Below the pieces are notes generated by a model, which saw only the letters and a list, made by a program, of their open reading frames with translations, was not told where the DNA came from and made no database searches. The position numbers were made by a program, and so were the translations under genes. A DNA stretch of 64,000 bases from Halorhabdus sp. CBA1104 (GTDB taxonomy: Archaea; Halobacteriota; Halobacteria; Halobacteriales; Haloarculaceae), in assembly GCF_009690625.1 (NCBI RefSeq), contig NZ_CP033878.1, forward strand, positions 1,612,001-1,676,000. The letters are read 5' to 3'. How positions within the stretch are numbered: the first letter of the stretch is position 1; each line of letters begins with the position of its first letter. Shown here piece by piece: positions 48,519 through 56,440 of the stretch.

Positions 48519-48856
48519 CGGCAGTACTTGGTTCGGGCCACGATAAAAACGCCAGGGTCGAATAGATAAACCATATACCACTATATCAAATTGCCGTCGC
48601 TCGAAGACACAGATTCTGCGTTTGGATTTCTACAAATCAACAAAATTCCAACATGTGGTCTGCGGGCGGGAATAAATAGGTGTTCGCGTCAACTTCGACA
48701 CAGGCACGGAGTAGATAGTTTCTCGTGCCTCACCCGTGAGCAGGCTTGCACAATCGGCTACACTTCAGATTGGTCTCTGAATCGCAAAGTGGTCAACCCG
48801 GTTGAGAAATTACAGCATCGTGTGAAAGGACGAATGCGTGTGCGCCCTATGGAGAT
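48519..48856. other. Lower-GC intergenic region at the left edge of the accessory stretch
   Basis: 338 nt. The first 30 nt hold the promoter of the DHH gene (TATA 48541-48550, minus). 48565-48665 is unusually AT-rich, with a near-palindromic CCATATACCACTATAT. No credible coding sequence: the one plus-strand frame here runs into the exporter gene in antisense and has no start context. No identifiable insertion-sequence end. Confidence 0.4.
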
Positions 48857-51457
48857 TCAGGCAACTCTTGTGAGTACGCGCTCCCGAACCACGAGCAGAC
48901 ACGGAAGTACCGTCACGCACGCGATGAACGCGTAGACGATACTCAAGCCTGTGACGATGCCAAACCGTTGGAGCGGGGGTGACAGCGCCAGTGCGAGCAC
49001 CCCAAAGCCCGCCGCAGTCGTCACCGCACTTCCGAGTAACGCACCGCCAGTTCCCTCAAGTGCTGTCCCCAGCGTTTCGGCGAGCGAATCGTGGCGAACG
49101 CGTTCATCGACAAACCGCTCACTGACGTGAATGCTGTAATCCACGCCGAGACCAATGGCTAAACTCGTGATCACGACGGTCTCGCTGTTGAATGGGATAT
49201 CGAGCACAGACATGGTGCCGAGCAACCACGCGAGCGCGATTACGACGGGTGCGAGCGTCACGATACCCAGCCCCGGTGCATGGTATCGCCACCAGTACAT
49301 ACTGATAAGAAGGGCAAGGATGACTCCTAAGGTGATAGCGAATCCCTCGACGAGCGTTTCGAACAGAGCACTCTGGACGACAGCAGTGATGACCGGACCA
49401 CCTGTTGCAGTAGCTCGTACTGGGGCGTCCTGTTCAATGGTCGAGGAGATGTCTCGTACGTCCCTTGCGACCGACTGAGCCGAGGCGTCCCCCTGCACGC
49501 CGACAGTTAGCCGTGCAGATTCGTATGACCCGTTCTCGGCTCGATAGAGAACCGACGATGCTTGTTCGGGAGCAACATTGAACATTAGGTCATAGACTGC
49601 TGCGACGTCTCTATCTGGGAGACCATCACCATCCGTGTCACGGGCTGCAATTGCATCCGCAACCGTTTGATTCTCCGAAGCCACAGCTCGAAGGACAGAT
49701 GTTGGGCTTTCGATAGCTGGTCTTCCATCGGAACCAATAACGACTGTCCCGCTGCTCTTAGTATTGCGGACCACATCGTCGGTCGCGGTAAGGAGTGCTG
49801 GCGCGGTCACGTTCCCACGTATCAATATTTGACCTTCTGATCCCTCTCCACGTTGCCGGAAATTGTCGCTGAGGTATGCAAGATTCTCACTCACCTCGTA
49901 CTCACCGGGTGCGAACGGTTCCGGGAGGGAATCCATCCACGACGGCGCATCCTGCGGGATGAAATCGGCTTGGTTGAACTCGGTGTCGATACTGGTCGCG
50001 CCGTACGCCCCTGCGGAGGCGAGGAGTAACGATAGAACGATGACGACGAGGGGGACTCGCCGAGCAAGCGTAGCGGTACCCGAGAGAACACGGTTCAGCC
50101 GCCCCGAACCGACGCCGACGGCGGGGGTATGCCGGTCGCGGCCACGGCGGTCGAAAAACTGTTCGAGTTCAAGTTTGACGGCTGGTACAAGCGCGGCGAA
50201 AACGACGAAGATGGCGACGATTCCCACACCGCTCAGGATGGCGAAATCCTGAATTGAGCCCAGCGGACTGATGTAGTTCGAGAGGAACCCGACAGCCGTC
50301 GAGAACGCGGCGGTAGCGAGGGCGAGAACGACCCCAGCGATTCCGAGACGCATCGCTGTCGTGGGATCTCGTCGACTGACGTTCTCATCGTCGGTGTCGA
50401 GCGCTCCCTCTCGGGCTTCGCGGTAGCGCATGACGACATGGAGCGAGTAATCGATACTCAGGCCGATAAGCAAGAACGGAACGGCGATCAGGGTCGAATT
50501 CGACGGAATCCCGAGCCACCCCTGTATGCCAGCGTACCACACCAGCACGACGGCCACGCCGAATAGACTCACGAGAACGTCGATGAGGTCGCGGTAGGCG
50601 ATTGTGAGGACGGTGAGCAAGAGAACGATTGCGACCGGTGTGATGATGATGAACGTGTCGCCGATGGCCTGCGAGGATTCCGCATCGATGAGACCCTGCC
50701 CGAACACGAACGCGTCGTCGAAGCGCTTCTCGACGAGAGAGCTGATGACCAGCTGTGCATCGTTCACCGATTCGGTTGTTGTAGTCGAACTGCTCGGACT
50801 CTGCTGAAAGACGAGAGTCGTTCTCGCGTCTGCACTCGTCGTCCCTGGTTCGTAATCCGTCGGCAGAAATTGAGTTGGCTCGTTGCCGGGAACAGACGCG
50901 TCTGGGTCGAGGATTCGGCTGAGATACGTTTCCACTTCCTCGTCGGTGCTGGATTCAAGTGCTGTGATCTGCTGGTCAAGTGCCGGTGCTGACGACTGAC
51001 CCTGTCTTGCCATCGACGTATTGTTTCCAGAACCATTGGCGATAGCTGACGAACCGTTACTCTGTTGGTGTGCGTACGCAACGTTGGCAACTATATTCTC
51101 AAGGCCGACGATCCCCGTTCCGTCACGAAGTGTCGCATTGATCGATGCATTCTCTCGGAGATCCTGCTGAAGACGGAGACTTTCGAGTAGCGATTCGCGG
51201 GTGAGAACGTCACCTCCCTCGTCCCTAATAACAACCTGTGCGACAACTGTATCATCCGTCTCGTACGTCGCTTCGATACGATCGAGTGCTGCCTGTTCTG
51301 GGGAATCGATGCCGGTTTGGCCGATCTGGCCTTCCCCAGTGGTGCCGACAATCGCGCCAGCCCCAACGACGGCACTAATGACGAGCAACAGTACAATAAC
51401 CAACCTGCTCCGCGATGCGACGAAATCTGCGTACTCAGAAGTAAGGCTTCGCTTCAT
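48857..51457 (-). CDS. MMPL/RND-superfamily exporter
   Basis: 866 aa with the duplicated RND layout: one helix, a large extracellular domain (about 40-260), helices 2-6 with LIGLSIDYSLHVVMRYREAR, a seventh helix near 450, a second extracellular domain (about 480-690), and five more helices with AIGLGVDYSIHVSERFVDER. The Asp-Tyr pairs in these two helices are the probable proton relay. Exports hydrophobic compounds or lipids; substrate unknown. It lies downstream of a small membrane protein and an HTH regulator on the same strand. Base composition is lower in GC than in flanking core genes. Confidence 0.9.
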   Translation of the reverse strand: MKRSLTSEYADFVASRSRLVIVLLLVISAVVGAGAIVGTTGEGQIGQTGIDSPEQAALDRIEATYETDDTVVAQVVIRDEGGDVLTRESLLESLRLQQDLRENASINATLRDGTGIVGLENIVANVAYAHQQSNGSSAIANGSGNNTSMARQGQSSAPALDQQITALESSTDEEVETYLSRILDPDASVPGNEPTQFLPTDYEPGTTSADARTTLVFQQSPSSSTTTTESVNDAQLVISSLVEKRFDDAFVFGQGLIDAESSQAIGDTFIIITPVAIVLLLTVLTIAYRDLIDVLVSLFGVAVVLVWYAGIQGWLGIPSNSTLIAVPFLLIGLSIDYSLHVVMRYREAREGALDTDDENVSRRDPTTAMRLGIAGVVLALATAAFSTAVGFLSNYISPLGSIQDFAILSGVGIVAIFVVFAALVPAVKLELEQFFDRRGRDRHTPAVGVGSGRLNRVLSGTATLARRVPLVVIVLSLLLASAGAYGATSIDTEFNQADFIPQDAPSWMDSLPEPFAPGEYEVSENLAYLSDNFRQRGEGSEGQILIRGNVTAPALLTATDDVVRNTKSSGTVVIGSDGRPAIESPTSVLRAVASENQTVADAIAARDTDGDGLPDRDVAAVYDLMFNVAPEQASSVLYRAENGSYESARLTVGVQGDASAQSVARDVRDISSTIEQDAPVRATATGGPVITAVVQSALFETLVEGFAITLGVILALLISMYWWRYHAPGLGIVTLAPVVIALAWLLGTMSVLDIPFNSETVVITSLAIGLGVDYSIHVSERFVDERVRHDSLAETLGTALEGTGGALLGSAVTTAAGFGVLALALSPPLQRFGIVTGLSIVYAFIACVTVLPCLLVVRERVLTRVA

Positions 51458-51651
51458 CGATTACTGACACCCCCAGCTATACCAGAAAATACGATGTCTA
51501 ATCGAGTTTGTTCTGTATCGGACGTGTCCATATGCGCATTCCGATGGGGATTGATAAGGAGCGATGGAAGGGTCCCAAGATGTGGGAGAACCAGTCGTAG
51601 CTTCGAACGTTCTTACTGGAGTAGCGACCGTCGGCGACGACAGACCGGATT
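51458..51651. other. Intergenic region upstream of the exporter gene
   Basis: 194 nt. A minus-strand GGTATAGC about 20 nt upstream of the exporter ATG is the most TATA-like element. Otherwise nothing recognisable. Confidence 0.35.
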
Positions 51652-51927
51652 CTACGTCTGGTTGAGTCCGTAGATCATCACGACGAATCCAATGCTGATG
51701 ATCACACTCTCAAGAGTCATCCCGGTGATAGTGGACGCTCCACCGATGTGGTTGAAGACTCCGACGAGAAACGTTCCAAGTGTGATGACTGCTAATCCTA
51801 TCGCAAAGAACTGGAGGCCCGCGATTCGCGTGCGATTGTATGCTCTGTACGCCATCAGAGACACAATTCCCCCGAGAATGAGGGCAGTGATCTTCACGAC
51901 GCCGAGTAACACGATAGAGAGGTTCAT
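51652..51927 (-). CDS. Small three-helix membrane protein (DUF7521-like)
   Basis: 91 aa: VVKITALILGGIVSLMAYRA, YNRTRIAGLQFFAIGLAVIT and SVIISIGFVVMIYGLNQT. Three hydrophobic helices with a single positive loop (YRAYNRTR). Haloarchaeal proteins of this type often sit next to an HTH regulator, as here: its ATG overlaps the regulator stop by ATGA. Function unknown, perhaps a membrane partner of the regulator or exporter. Confidence 0.75.
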   Translation of the reverse strand: MNLSIVLLGVVKITALILGGIVSLMAYRAYNRTRIAGLQFFAIGLAVITLGTFLVGVFNHIGGASTITGMTLESVIISIGFVVMIYGLNQT

Positions 51928-52379
51928 TTCGATTCCTCCTTCATTGCAGACCAGAACGTTGCCATGCGGTCTTCTGGGTCTTCTTCGGGTCGGGATACCT
52001 CTATCGTGAACTCGTCATCGGTGACGCTAATTGAGATGTCAGTAAAATCGCGTTCGTAGAGAGTCACGTTGGGTCCGTCACGTCGAACCTCGGTGTATTC
52101 ACGGACGAGCATCGATTCACGGAGCAAGTCGAGCTTCCGATACACCGTCGAGCTTGAGAGACCGCACTCCTCACAGAGTTCGCTGGCAGATTTCGGTTCG
52201 GCCAGTAGCGTGAGTATGGTTCGACATTTATCGTCGTCGAGGGATTTCAACACCGTCGGGAGGCCGGGTTCGTCGAGTTCCTCGGACGACCATCGATCCA
52301 TTTCAGTAGATGAATTGCGGAATGAATTCTTCGACGGAATTAGTGATAGACGATTCGGATCAACGTTTTGTTCGGTCAT
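51924..52379 (-). CDS. Winged-helix transcriptional regulator (ArsR-like)
   Basis: 151 aa. A 40-residue N-terminal tail, then LKSLDDDKCRTILTLLAEPK, SASELCEECGLSSSTVYRKL as the HTH recognition region and LDLLRESMLVREYTEVRRDG as the wing. The C-terminal part (VTLYERDFTDISISVTDDEF) is a beta domain. It is the first gene before the small membrane protein and the MMPL exporter, so it probably controls them. The two Cys in ELCEEC could sense redox or metal, speculatively. Confidence 0.85.
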   Translation of the reverse strand: MTEQNVDPNRLSLIPSKNSFRNSSTEMDRWSSEELDEPGLPTVLKSLDDDKCRTILTLLAEPKSASELCEECGLSSSTVYRKLDLLRESMLVREYTEVRRDGPNVTLYERDFTDISISVTDDEFTIEVSRPEEDPEDRMATFWSAMKEESK

Positions 52380-52724
52380 CTCAAGTGCTGTATATTGTAG
52401 AGCTGCTGTGGCATTTCACGGACATCGTATTTTGTAGTGTTTAATTCATTCGGCGCGATGGCTTTAGAGTCCCGGTTATTCCCAAGTTGCTGGAATAGCA
52501 CGCTGTGGTGCGTTACTGCTGTTTCTGGTCGTTTACAGGTACTACTCCCAGACTCTGGGACACCTCCTTTGGTGTATATGGCCAGCCTCGAATAATCGAC
52601 TGATGACACACGAAGCTAATAAATGAATCAACCTGCGAGACGCGGGGTGTGAAGCATCCAGCACAAAACGCCGATCGAGCAACCCTAATTCGATTGTCAC
52701 ACAATTGAACGCGGAGGTGCGACA
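52380..52724. other. Intergenic region between the ArsR-like regulator and the CopD-like gene
   Basis: 345 nt, AT-richer than flanking core genome, with no credible gene. Upstream of the plus-strand gene lies ATTGTCACACAAT (52693-52705), a perfect 5-3-5 inverted repeat near the expected promoter, and a clear Shine-Dalgarno GGAGGT (52713-52718) 6 nt before the ATG at 52725, so that mRNA probably has a leader. Confidence 0.45.
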
Positions 52725-53165
52725 ATGACAACTATGCTTGATGTGGTAATGACCATCCACACGGTCTTCGCCGCATTATGGACGGGCGGGACACTCGTGG
52801 TTGCAGGGGCCGTCATCCCGGCAGCACGCAGCGATTTGCTGAGTACAGAAGGGCTGACGCTTATCGCACGAAGATTCTGGTATCTTACGGTGGCCTCAGT
52901 CCTGCTATTGTTGTTCAGCGGCGGCCATCTCGCAGGGACGCTCTATACTGCCGAATCGCTCCAGGCGACGGGCCGAGGAAACCTCGTCCTGACGATGGTC
53001 GGCCTGTGGCTTGTCCTCGCAATCGTGCTGTTCTTCGGGTTCCGTCGACTGACCGGCAGCCAATCGGAGACGTCAGCGGTCGCAGCTTCAACGCGAGCGC
53101 GACCGTGGTTCCTTGGTGCGAGCGGTGTCTCGATAGCGCTGCTCGTCGTTGCCGGGCTTCTGTGA
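52725..53165 (+). CDS. CopD-like four-helix membrane protein
   Basis: 146 aa. VVMTIHTVFAALWTGGTLVV carries the His...Trp-Thr-Gly pattern of CopD/DUF4149-like proteins; AARRFW-type loop RRFWYLTVASVLLLLFSGG has another helix and a histidine follows in GGHLAGTL. Four hydrophobic helices. Copper or haem handling is possible from the fold, but unproven. Shine-Dalgarno GGAGGT 6 nt before the ATG. It is alone on its strand in the accessory stretch. Confidence 0.75.
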   Translation: MTTMLDVVMTIHTVFAALWTGGTLVVAGAVIPAARSDLLSTEGLTLIARRFWYLTVASVLLLLFSGGHLAGTLYTAESLQATGRGNLVLTMVGLWLVLAIVLFFGFRRLTGSQSETSAVAASTRARPWFLGASGVSIALLVVAGLL

Positions 53166-53452
53166 GACGAGTCGACAGAATTTATCACCGTATGAAGCAG
53201 AGAACAAGGTCGGATCTCAATAACGCTACGTAAGAATATTCCTTCTATCTCGGTTGACGAGGATTCGAGTTATAAGAAGAAGTTGGCATCGTGATAAACT
53301 ACTTAAAGTACAGACCACCTCATGGCTCATGAGCCATAAGACGGTGGAAGGTGTGTTTGATTTGCTTCCTGCCCTGAACCGTCAGCTGAGACAGTTCCAT
53401 TTGTGGCTGAGAGTTTCACAAGAGGTAGCCGAGCCGCTATAAATCGTTTGTC
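53166..53452. other. AT-rich intergenic region with a 16-bp palindrome
   Basis: 287 nt. It contains ATGGCTCATGAGCCAT (53322-53337), a perfect 16-bp palindrome, and an AT-rich tract at 53230-53315. No gene. The 3' end of the HTH gene follows at 53453. Confidence 0.4.
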
Positions 53453-54001
53453 TCAGTCGCTGCCCCCTCCCGTCCCATCGGCGTCCTCGAGTTCTTCGAT
53501 TGGCTCAAGATTCGCTTCCATACGTTTGTGTTTAGCTTCACGAAGCTTCTCTTCTGACGCCATCTTCGGCACTAAAGACGCCCCTTCGGGAAGGTCGACA
53601 TCCTGATCCTCTACGGGTTCCGAATCGGTGACCATCTTGCGGATCTCCATATCTCGGTTGAGTTTCCCAACCATCCGTTCGAACGCCGTCTCACGTTCGT
53701 GCTGAACCCGCCGGAGCTCCCGGACCTTCCGTTCGAATTCCGTCTTAGCTGCCCAATCGTAGATACGACGTCCAAGAATCGTGAGCGCATACCGTTTCTC
53801 TGTCCCATGCTCGGTCGGCTTATGGCTGACCGTGAACACTTCGCGTTCAACGCCTTCTGAGAGTCGTGAAGACACCGTCGATCCACTTACCGCAACCGCG
53901 TCGGCAAGCGCGTTGAATGTCGCTGTTTCCATCCCAATCTCCGTGATGAGTTCCGCCGCTCCCTTCTTCCGAAGAAATGCTTCGAGTTCGTCCAAGCCCA
54001 T
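53453..54001 (-). CDS. HTH transcriptional regulator of mobile-element type
   Basis: 182 aa. LDELEAFLRKKGAAELITEI, GMETATFNALADAVAVSGST and VSSRLSEGVEREVFTVSHKP form a winged helix (MarR/HxlR-like), with YALTILGRRIYDWAAKTEFE after it. Residues 105-182 are a long charged helix ending in an acidic tail (IEELEDADGTGGGSD). Such regulators are common in haloarchaeal mobile regions. A minus-strand TATA (TTTATAG, 54027-54034) is 29 nt upstream, with two near-identical 15-nt repeats farther upstream that could be its operator. Confidence 0.8.
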   Translation of the reverse strand: MGLDELEAFLRKKGAAELITEIGMETATFNALADAVAVSGSTVSSRLSEGVEREVFTVSHKPTEHGTEKRYALTILGRRIYDWAAKTEFERKVRELRRVQHERETAFERMVGKLNRDMEIRKMVTDSEPVEDQDVDLPEGASLVPKMASEEKLREAKHKRMEANLEPIEELEDADGTGGGSD

Positions 54002-54026
54002 CGTATCTCCTTCTTCTCACACATCA

Positions 54027-54034
54027 CTATAAAC
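54027..54034 (-). promoter_or_regulatory. TATA box of the HTH gene
   Basis: GTTTATAG on the minus strand, centred about 29 nt upstream of the ATG at 54001; leaderless arrangement. Confidence 0.5.
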
Positions 54035-54044
54035 CCAACCGAAA

Positions 54045-54076
54045 TTTGATTCAAACTGATTTTTGACTCATACTGA
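54045..54076. repeat. Pair of 15-nt direct repeats upstream of the HTH gene
   Basis: TTTGATTCAAACTGA (54045-54059) and TTTGACTCATACTGA (54062-54076) agree at 13 of 15 positions and start 17 nt apart. Each begins with a TTTGAnTCA half-palindrome. Their place just behind the TATA box makes them candidate binding sites for the adjacent regulator. Confidence 0.5.
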
Positions 54077-54297
54077 ATAATGGCTACAACCAATTCTCCA
54101 AATACAGCACGTATACTCCTTGAAATGTCTCCAGCGATAAGCTCAGAGCAAGCAATCGACACAAATTCTCTACTCTACTTTTACTCTACTTTATACTGAA
54201 GTATGCTCTTGGATAGCGGACAGAACTACACAGAATCACTCCAGTAGTTGGTCGACCACAGCTCAGAATCGGAACAGTTCGCCCTGGAGGTGGCTCA

Positions 54298-56028
54298 ATG
54301 CCAACTGATCCGTCGGCTGTCGCTGATTCAATCATTGTCCACGCGGAGACACTCTGTGAGCGTGAAGACCACCTCTGGGATGTCATTCGTCAGCTTTCGA
54401 TCCCTGTCGACAATCTCGAGGATGCCCGCGACCAGAGCCGCGTGACCTTCGGAACTGACGAAATGTTTCGCACGCTCCTGTTCAAAGGAATTCGAGGGAT
54501 CTCACAGAACGAACTAGCCCAACGACTCGGGCGTGAGCCGAGCCTCGTCAAGAGCTTCCACCTCGATATTACCGATCTCTCGAATACGCCGACCCAACAA
54601 CAGCTCTCGTACACGCACGCGCAGTTCAGTGAGGACACCCAGGAAGTCCTCAATCGGACGGTTGCTGGCGTCCGGCAAGTTGCTCTCGACAACGGCGTCC
54701 TCACGGAGGGTCTTGTTCCGTCAGTCCCAGCCGAAACCGAGGAGGAGTCACAAAGCGCGAATGAGTACAAGAAAGAGAAGGCCCAGAAGACGCTGACGCT
54801 CGCTCGAAAACACGTTATCCCTGAGTTCGACACGCACCGAGCAGCTCACAAGACGTACTCCGACGAAGTGATGCTGGATATGTTCGCAAGTATCTGCGCG
54901 AACAACGGTAGTGCCCACTCAGAAGCCGAGTACGGTTGGCTCACTGATGACGACCTGATCTGTGACGATTCGACGTTCCTCCGCGCAATCAAGAAGATCG
55001 CGACACCCGAAGACTCCGATGGCCAGCTCACGTTCGAAGATTTCCAGGACGATGACTCGATGCCCGAGATCGACCAGATTCGGGACGCTATTATGACGGC
55101 GTTCAACGCCGCGACGGAAAACATCATCAACTCAATTCGTGGCGAGGACCCCTTCGACTCCCGTAAGAAGATTGCAGCCATCGACATCACGCACGAGCAA
55201 TTCCACGTCTGGCCGTGGGAGGACAAGGAAGCAGGCATCGCGAAGCCAGACTACCCGAAGATGGTGAGTGGGTACAAGAAAGACGGCGAGTACAAACACG
55301 GCTACAAGTACGCCACCATCACCCTAGTCGGTGACCACGCGCCGATCGCCCTCGGCATTGAGCCGGTCAAAGAGGACTCTGCGTGGGAGCGTGAGGACTC
55401 GCCGTCGTACTCAAAGGCTGACCTGGTGAGCCGATTGCTCGACCGGGCGGAGCAGTTCGTTGATCTGGACATGGTGATGTTCGACCGTGGATTCTACGTC
55501 AATCGCGTGTACGCAGATGTTCACGAGCGCGGGCTCACATACCTCTCTCCAGTGCCGACGTATGAGGATGATTTGGCGGCAATTCAGGATATTCAGGAAC
55601 ATCCGACGGCAGACGCAGCTGTCAAGCACGACGTTCCATTTGGACTCGATGGCGAAGTACATCACGAGGCCGAATTCTTGTACGCGCCGAGCACGAGTGA
55701 CGATGCCGAGGGGAAGTATGCGGTGTTCGTGACGAATCGGGATCGCGTTGAGCCCGAGGAAATCAGGAGTATCGTGAACGGGTACAGTCGGCGCTGGGAT
55801 ATCGAGAACCAGTACAAGTCGATCAAGGACTTCATGCCGAAGACGTCGTCGACGGACTACCGGCTTCGGTTGTGTAACTTCGCGCTGTCAACGCTGATCT
55901 ACAACCTGTGGCGGCTGACTGACTATCTAATCAAGGTCGCGCTCGACGAGCCGATCCGGTCGCCGCCAGTGATTACGGCGAAGACGTTCGTGCGAGCGTT
56001 GGGCGACTTCCTACGGGAGTTCGGGTAA
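54298..56028 (+). mobile_element. IS4-family DDE transposase gene of an insertion sequence
   Basis: 576 aa. The C-terminal part shows the IS4 signature Y(2)R(3)E(6)K exactly in YSRRWDIENQYKSIK (Y, R, E, K spaced 2, 3 and 6). The catalytic Asp residues are probably in KIAAIDITHEQFHVW and MVMFDRGFYVN. An N-terminal helical region with LFKGIRGISQNELAQRLGRE is HTH-like. The gene appears intact. I could not identify terminal inverted repeats or a target duplication by eye in the 250 nt on either side, so element ends are not given. Codon use is less GC-biased than in core genes. Confidence 0.87.
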
Positions 56029-56440
56029 CGCTTTTCTCACTCTGGGTTCACCGATTCGGTAGCGACTGCTCTATCGATTTTCGTCTTTTCGGACTACTTA
56101 TCACATAGAATACTAATTGACAGTCGCTAATTCGATCGCATCCGGTTTTCGCACCGGAATTTAAGTCACCAACTCGGGAATTTCCCAGTTTCATTTGTAA
56201 GCTTATAAGCACGCTAAGAATGTGAAGAATCTCACGATGGCGAGCTAGTGTCCAAGTGTGCCAAGATAAGCAGTAGGACGGGTCCAAAAGCCCTCAGCAG
56301 GGCGATCGACACCGGGGCAAGTGAGCGAACGCTGAAAATGTGTAGACGGCGGCGAAGCCACTCGCCACGAGAAGTCAGTGAGACAGCGCTGATGGACGAG
56401 CACTATCGGACCGGCAAACGAACAGTGGTCGCCGTCGGCG
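56029..56440. other. Intergenic region after the transposase, right edge of the accessory stretch
   Basis: 412 nt without a credible gene. The first 200 nt are AT-rich; a hairpin with TCCGGT (56141-56146) and ACCGGA (56153-56158), and a palindromic GGGAATTTCCC around 56175-56185 lie there. From about 56240 the composition returns to GC-rich. No IS end or tRNA recognised. Confidence 0.4.

Follow-up and report, generated by a model that had tools for sequence, protein, structure and literature searches.

A mobile haloarchaeal efflux cassette, probably controlled by a paired HTH-DUF7521 regulator through a repeated DNA palindrome

Results

A 64,000-nucleotide (nt) stretch of the 2.63-Mb, single-contig genome of the haloarchaeon Halorhabdus sp. 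CBA1104 (contig NZ_CP033878.1, positions 1,612,001 to 1,676,000; hereafter the window) carries a cassette of four genes, encoding a regulator with a helix-turn-helix (HTH) domain, a small membrane protein of the DUF7521 family, a large exporter and a divergent CopD-like membrane protein (Table 1). The cassette is a horizontally moving haloarchaeal efflux unit, in which the HTH-DUF7521 regulator probably switches on a lipid- or drug-type exporter via a repeated DNA signal. A preliminary description of this DNA had proposed a three-part efflux unit of regulator, small protein and exporter. The regulator and small protein do lie as it said, both on the minus strand and sharing 4 nt (ATGA), an overlap that recurs in the family. 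The exporter is indeed downstream on the same strand, its start 194 nt from the DUF7521 gene, but the three genes should not be taken for one transcript, as the exporter has a conserved promoter-like block of its own.

Table 1. Features of the cassette and the adjoining transposase (positions in the window; ORF, open reading frame)
Feature	Position	Strand	Basis or remark
MMPL/HAE3-like RND-type (resistance-nodulation-division) exporter, 866 aa, two G-x-x-x-D-Y motifs (332, 769)	48857..51457	-	Pfam, solved relatives
Exporter leader ORF, 25 codons, TGA overlaps exporter ATG	51454..51531	-	starts 41 nt after operator
Exporter TATA-like box TTATCA, 15 nt past operator	51552..51557	-	conserved block
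Exporter operator TCCCACATCTTGGGA	51573..51587	-	spacer alignment, motif counts
DUF7521 small membrane protein, 91 aa, three helices	51652..51927	-	start overlaps regulator stop by 4 nt
HTH regulator, 151 aa, ArsR-like winged helix, DUF7521 partner	51924..52379	-	ORF, Pfam match, low-confidence model
Weaker operator-like site at regulator TCCAGCAACTTGGGA, 2 mismatches, then TATA-like CTCTAAAG	52480..52494	-	alignment
CopD-like operator TCCCAGACTCTGGGA, then TATATG 14-15 nt on	52546..52560	+	motif search
CopD-like leader ORF start, cut to 7 codons by stop	52603..52626	+	comparison of 18 loci
CopD-like membrane protein, 146 aa, divergent fourth cassette gene	52725..53165	+	CopD match under cut-off
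DDE transposase within inserted region	54298..56028	+	profile match; relatives or remnants beside cassette elsewhere

Across a sample of 292 genomes of the haloarchaeal class, close relatives of the DUF7521 protein (E ≤ 1e-15) occupy 33 places in 31 genomes and 17 genera. An HTH gene lies directly upstream at all 33 (32 fetched loci plus the window) and an MMPL/HAE3-like exporter downstream at 29, so that the suggested association of the three families extends well past the host genome; the CopD-like gene is part of the unit at 18. HTH homologues outside the cassette are followed on the same strand by a DUF7521 gene at 59 of 60 loci, and loci anchored on DUF7521, including a few cassette copies, contain the HTH gene in 27 of 30 cases. 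Neither gene lies near any of 19 related non-cassette exporters (loci L158-L163 and L191-L203), one of which, L158, is flanked according to Pfam by a class I aminoacyl-tRNA synthetase and an HFX_2341-type regulator. The HTH and DUF7521 genes therefore form a near-obligate pair, one branch of which the exporter has joined.

What ties the exporter to this pair is a short DNA signal. Aligned spacers between the DUF7521 and exporter genes share a palindrome, TCCCA-N5-TGGGA, followed after about 15 nt by a TATA-like CTTATCA, while the rest of the spacer has diverged. The palindrome stands at all 29 exporter promoters with at most one mismatch (26 are exact), and at all 18 CopD-like promoters it is exact, its distance to the TATA-like box being near-constant in both sets; in genome G016 the CopD-like gene lies more than 1 kb from the regulator yet has its own copy. 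Regulator promoters carry a weaker palindrome followed by CTATAC or CTCTAAA, with one-mismatch forms in other loci, and most exact sites on the regulator side are the CopD-like operator viewed from the opposite side. A single three-gene operon was rejected as the principal reading, since an operator and a TATA-like block precede every cassette exporter. Shared as it is by the exporter, the CopD-like gene and, weakly, the regulator, the palindrome links the exporter to this regulator; the efflux unit of the preliminary description thus survives as a linked set of families, but not as one operon, and with a fourth gene at many places.

The exact palindrome occurs twice in the window against 0.06 expected, both times in intergenic DNA of the cassette, and none of 100 shuffles contained two; with one mismatch allowed a count of two is not significant, so that the exact count alone is. 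The 19 control exporter loci yielded one single one-mismatch hit. When 20 whole genomes were searched with the extended form TCCCAN5TGGGAN4TCC, all 26 matches fell at the cassette, in 14 cassette genomes, and neither the six congeners lacking the cassette nor a reversed control pattern gave any. There is a strong case that the HTH protein binds TCCCA-N5-TGGGA.

The palindrome reaches beyond the cassette. In 65 diverged HTH-DUF7521 loci (540 kb) we counted 14 exact cores, against one in 328 kb of controls (25 loci; Fisher p = 0.014), and 44 against 3 when one mismatch was allowed (p = 1e-6); the palindrome therefore goes with the HTH family rather than with exporters in general. Seven of the exact sites precede a gene for the transcription factor TFB, four lie between the HTH gene and a multicopper oxidase gene, one precedes the HTH gene and two lie elsewhere. 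A multicopper oxidase adjoins 20 of the 65 loci by the stricter search used here (26 by clustering), and a P-type ATPase adjoins four.

Two further observations concern these targets. Near the cassette, a TFB (TFIIB) gene has the palindrome some 95 nt upstream at L178:11602-11616 (G188), L177:978-992 (G162) and L261:1749-1763 (G237). At the 65 diverged loci, 12 sites, that at L261 among them, precede a TFB gene (7 exact, 5 one-mismatch), a hint that the regulon includes a TFB of its own. At L243, L254, L257, L267 and L281 a multicopper oxidase gene is divergent from the HTH-DUF7521 pair, with the palindrome between them at all of these loci except L243, where it lies beside the HTH gene.

The small membrane protein matches DUF7521 (PF24365) over its full length (E 2.5e-23; 82.6 bits against a gathering score of 27; profile positions 3-81 of 82). 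Its AlphaFold2 model has helices at residues 3-33, 36-62 and 66-90 (mean predicted local distance difference test, pLDDT, 89.1), and a fold search of the PDB returned a best E of 0.71 and nothing below 0.001, which for three helices is uninformative. By the positive-inside rule, its conserved R-A-Y-x-R-T loop would be cytoplasmic. Among cassette pairs, the regulator's stop and the DUF7521 start overlap in 29 of 30, and among the remaining family pairs in 52 of 59, counts that omit three further rows flagged 'A'; recurring as it does across pairs, the overlap is not due to chance. In the available part of a study that tested ATGA and TGATG gene pairs in Haloferax volcanii and Escherichia coli, coupling was strict for 13 of 14 (PMC6728339). 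DUF7521 matches were found in 50 of 59 sampled relatives, and H. volcanii too carries the family. Seven copies are present in the host genome, where regulators sharing the operator core may cross-talk.

The regulator matches HTH_20 (E 4e-9) and, weakly, the ArsR-type HTH_5; NCBIfam metalloregulator models score it far below their cut-offs (NF033788, ArsR/SmtB: 30 bits against a curated 55), and no related solved structure was found at E ≤ 0.01. The ELCEEC cysteine pair pointed out in the preliminary description exists, but it is not conserved: its first cysteine is Ser or Arg in 2 of 8 aligned orthologues, so that metal sensing through this pair was rejected. C52 and C72 are invariant in the same alignment. 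Ahead of the winged helix, the N-terminal tail of the cassette HTH proteins contains a conserved V..N.L.LIPS (residues 6-16; 52332-52364 in the window), and matches to diverged family members mostly start past this tail.

The exporter matches MMPL (PF03176) in two stretches (E 2.7e-33, 115.8 bits), above the gathering score in both halves. None of the listed NCBIfam transporter models, HAE3 included (TIGR00921; 226.7 bits, curated cut-off 351.9), scores it above its cut-off. MmpL3 is known for proton-relay Asp-Tyr motifs in both of its membrane halves, and the two motifs of the exporter read GLSIDY (332) and GLGVDY (769). Among solved structures, its relatives are chains of HpnN, MmpL4/5 and Patched. 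One cassette copy (L170; G016:C14:387167-389764) contains a single in-frame TGA, and may be damaged or have a misread end. The fourth gene scores 26.9 bits against CopD (PF05425), short of the gathering score of 32.1.

At 26 of the 29 exporter loci, a leader ORF whose stop overlaps the exporter start begins 35-43 nt past the operator (41-43 nt in all but one); a one-codon ORF at L188 is an artefact and is left out of this count. The leaders run to 24-27 codons in 25 loci and to 69 codons in L154. At L187 and L188 the exporter itself starts 43 nt past the operator. The leaders begin about where a leaderless mRNA would. A comparable leader of roughly 27-43 codons precedes the CopD-like gene and is intact in 17 of 18 loci; the truncated one is that of the window genome. 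Differences at the three codon positions are flat in both leaders (136/126/163 for the exporter leader, 39/52/45 for the CopD-like leader), compared with 144/75/464 in the exporter itself, and on this ground conservation of the leaders as peptides was rejected. If they matter, the leader ORFs must therefore act by being translated.

The cassette lies in an inserted region of 7.8 kb (48603-56440 in the window), whose flanks are only 1.2-2.9 kb apart in four congeners (G002, G003, G005 and G006); for two more (G001 and G004) the comparison covers a single flank. Cassette genes have a G+C content of 51-60%, against 63.6% for the window, and the exporter of the window shares as much as 97% identity with copies in other families. 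Transposases related to the one in the inserted region, or their remnants, adjoin the cassette in G086, G238, G074 and G188, and one cassette copy is assigned to a plasmid record of Halostella pelagica (322,915 bases). Between the CopD-like gene and the transposase, the window also contains an unrelated second winged-helix-like gene (53453-54001; 182 aa) that matches no family above cut-off.

The cassette keeps its gene order even where exporter identity has fallen to about 50%. A tree of 49 exporter sequences, which omits L170, L178 and L179 from the cassette set of 29 and places the long branches L189 and L154 less certainly, splits the 26 cassette members into two clades, one of 22 and one of four, the latter nested among non-cassette exporters of family f7. 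Supported branches force a minimum of two label changes, and therefore two exporter lineages share the arrangement; to judge by these sequences, the module probably recruited exporters twice, or else its exporter was exchanged.

Discussion

The explanation that best accounts for the locus overall, and one we consider fairly likely, is a mobile efflux cassette run by a dedicated two-gene HTH-DUF7521 regulator with its own operator. The HTH protein would be made in translational coupling with DUF7521, which most likely anchors it at the membrane or signals to it from there. A membrane signal would pass to DUF7521 and on to the HTH protein, which would bind the palindrome about 15 nt upstream of the TATA box at the exporter, the CopD-like gene and, through a weaker copy, its own operon. 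Once triggered by its membrane partner, it would most likely activate by helping TBP and TFB to the promoter, so that transcription of the exporter, the CopD-like gene and the HTH-DUF7521 pair rises. The exporter mRNA probably starts at the 25-codon leader ORF, which would hand its ribosomes to the exporter start, and the exporter would then expel a hydrophobic or amphiphilic compound. We infer the two signalling steps from linkage and topology, and the transcriptional step from the operator. Membrane stress or a lipid substrate, named in the preliminary description as the inducer, finds no support here.

What does the small membrane protein do for the regulator? Its coupling to the regulator gene is near-universal (33 of 33 and 59 of 60 loci), which makes a role as sensor or tether plausible, and on linkage and topology we think such a role somewhat likely. 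Activation rather than repression also seems rather likely to us: the accessible parts of two reports place archaeal activators upstream of the transcription factor B recognition element (BRE) and TATA box (PMC5937170, PMC13286277).

Several points weigh against this explanation. Placed 15 nt ahead of the TATA box, the site might hinder TFB, making repression possible. A search of 9367 ORFs from 165 loci returned no protein in which HTH and DUF7521 are fused. The structure model of the regulator has the element order of a winged helix at low confidence (pLDDT 57), and we made no use of it. An exporter is missing at 4 of the 33 places (G288, and three genomes of a single genus, G087, G136 and G108), which means that the regulator also serves other ends; at L155, the exporter-less locus examined by Pfam, a xanthine/uracil-type permease stands in the neighbouring position. 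Among the 30 one-mismatch sites at diverged loci, 19 adjoin no listed target. Finally, an overlapping upstream ORF of some kind also precedes 6 of the 19 non-cassette exporters, and the leader ORF is accordingly not peculiar to the cassette.

The foremost alternative is an ordinary cytoplasmic HTH repressor, released from the palindrome by the substrate, with DUF7521 serving as a pump auxiliary or in membrane protection and not as a sensor. Local efflux regulators of the ArsR or TetR type are mostly repressors, and since DUF7521 always accompanies the exporter's own regulon, a pump-side role would also produce the linkage. Yet DUF7521 stays with the HTH gene where the exporter is absent, both at the HTH-anchored loci and at the four exporter-less places, and its constant partner is therefore the regulator. 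The operator, moreover, lies upstream of the TATA-like box at the exporter and CopD-like promoters, clear of the inferred start. We regard this alternative as unlikely.

Slightly less probable still is a copper or redox sensor, in which an ArsR-type HTH protein would sense through cysteines and the CopD-like protein and exporter would make up a metal-stress module. The CopD-like fourth gene, the multicopper oxidases and P-type ATPases at other HTH-DUF7521 loci and the invariant C52 and C72 all speak for it. Set against them are the variability of the ELCEEC pair, the failure of the CopD match and of the metalloregulator models to reach their cut-offs, and an exporter that is MMPL/HAE3-like and not a heavy-metal RND pump. 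That the genes form no functional unit, being neighbours co-moved recently by an insertion element, is very improbable: recent transfer is clear from the near-identical exporters in other families, the absence of the insertion from congeners and the adjacent transposases, but the conserved order among distant copies, the two exporter lineages and a palindrome conserved within diverged spacers speak otherwise, and the operator data already make this account unlikely.

The dedicated HTH-DUF7521 regulator might belong to something wider. We speculate, tentatively and with somewhat more doubt than belief, that HTH-DUF7521 pairs constitute a separate class of membrane signalling in haloarchaea, a one-component system divided between a cytoplasmic HTH protein and its coupled three-helix membrane sensor, with a TCCCA-N5-TGGGA code shared across many genera, which would have captured efflux pumps at least twice as well as multicopper oxidases and TFB genes, and whose cassette targets would be expressed through leaderless leader ORFs serving only to deliver ribosomes. 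If so, haloarchaea possess a simple split switch from membrane to DNA. The arrangement offers a testable role for DUF7521 and a precise operator for a widespread gene pair, and explains how exporters can be traded between haloarchaeal families with their control circuit attached; the shared operator core and the several host DUF7521 copies also raise the question of cross-talk.

Local regulators of efflux pumps are a known kind, whereas we have seen no description of a split regulator coupled to a membrane protein, of its operator or of its spread. The DUF7521 family, which the window protein matches above cut-off, has no assigned function. A literature search, in a library of 5.39 million papers without most subscription papers, turned up neither the term 'DUF7521' nor, among the titles and abstract openings listed, any description of the HTH-DUF7521 pair, the cassette or the palindrome motif, and the available part of a denitrification transcriptome study (PMC11218638) contains nothing on the pair. 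With the MMPL/HAE3 RND transporters (MmpL3/4/5, HpnN, Patched and NPC1) the exporter shares the MMPL match, the matches to solved chains and both GxxxDY motifs; it differs in scoring under all listed NCBIfam transporter cut-offs, and no MmpS-like adaptor gene was seen in the cassette.

Two archaeal regulators come closer to the control circuit. CsmR of Haloferax volcanii has a semi-palindrome, TATCA-N4-TGATA, beside BRE/TATA and was inferred to be an activator from position, as is the cassette HTH protein; it controls motility and cell shape, its motif is a different one, and the accessible portion of the report mentions no DUF7521 or exporter (PMC13286277). In TFB-RF1 (PF1088) of Pyrococcus furiosus, as described in the available part of PMC5937170, binding and activation are proven, whereas they are inferred for the cassette HTH protein; its palindrome is TCTGAANTTCAGA, and the exporter (pf1011/1012) is of the ABC and not the MMPL type. 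There too, a small regulator gene shares an operon with a hypothetical gene (pf1089), a palindrome lies upstream of a weak BRE and TATA box, and the regulator acts within a conserved network on its own gene and on an export system. The same arrangement, a palindrome at constant distance upstream of BRE/TATA, is found at every one of the 29 exporter and 18 CopD-like promoters of the cassette.

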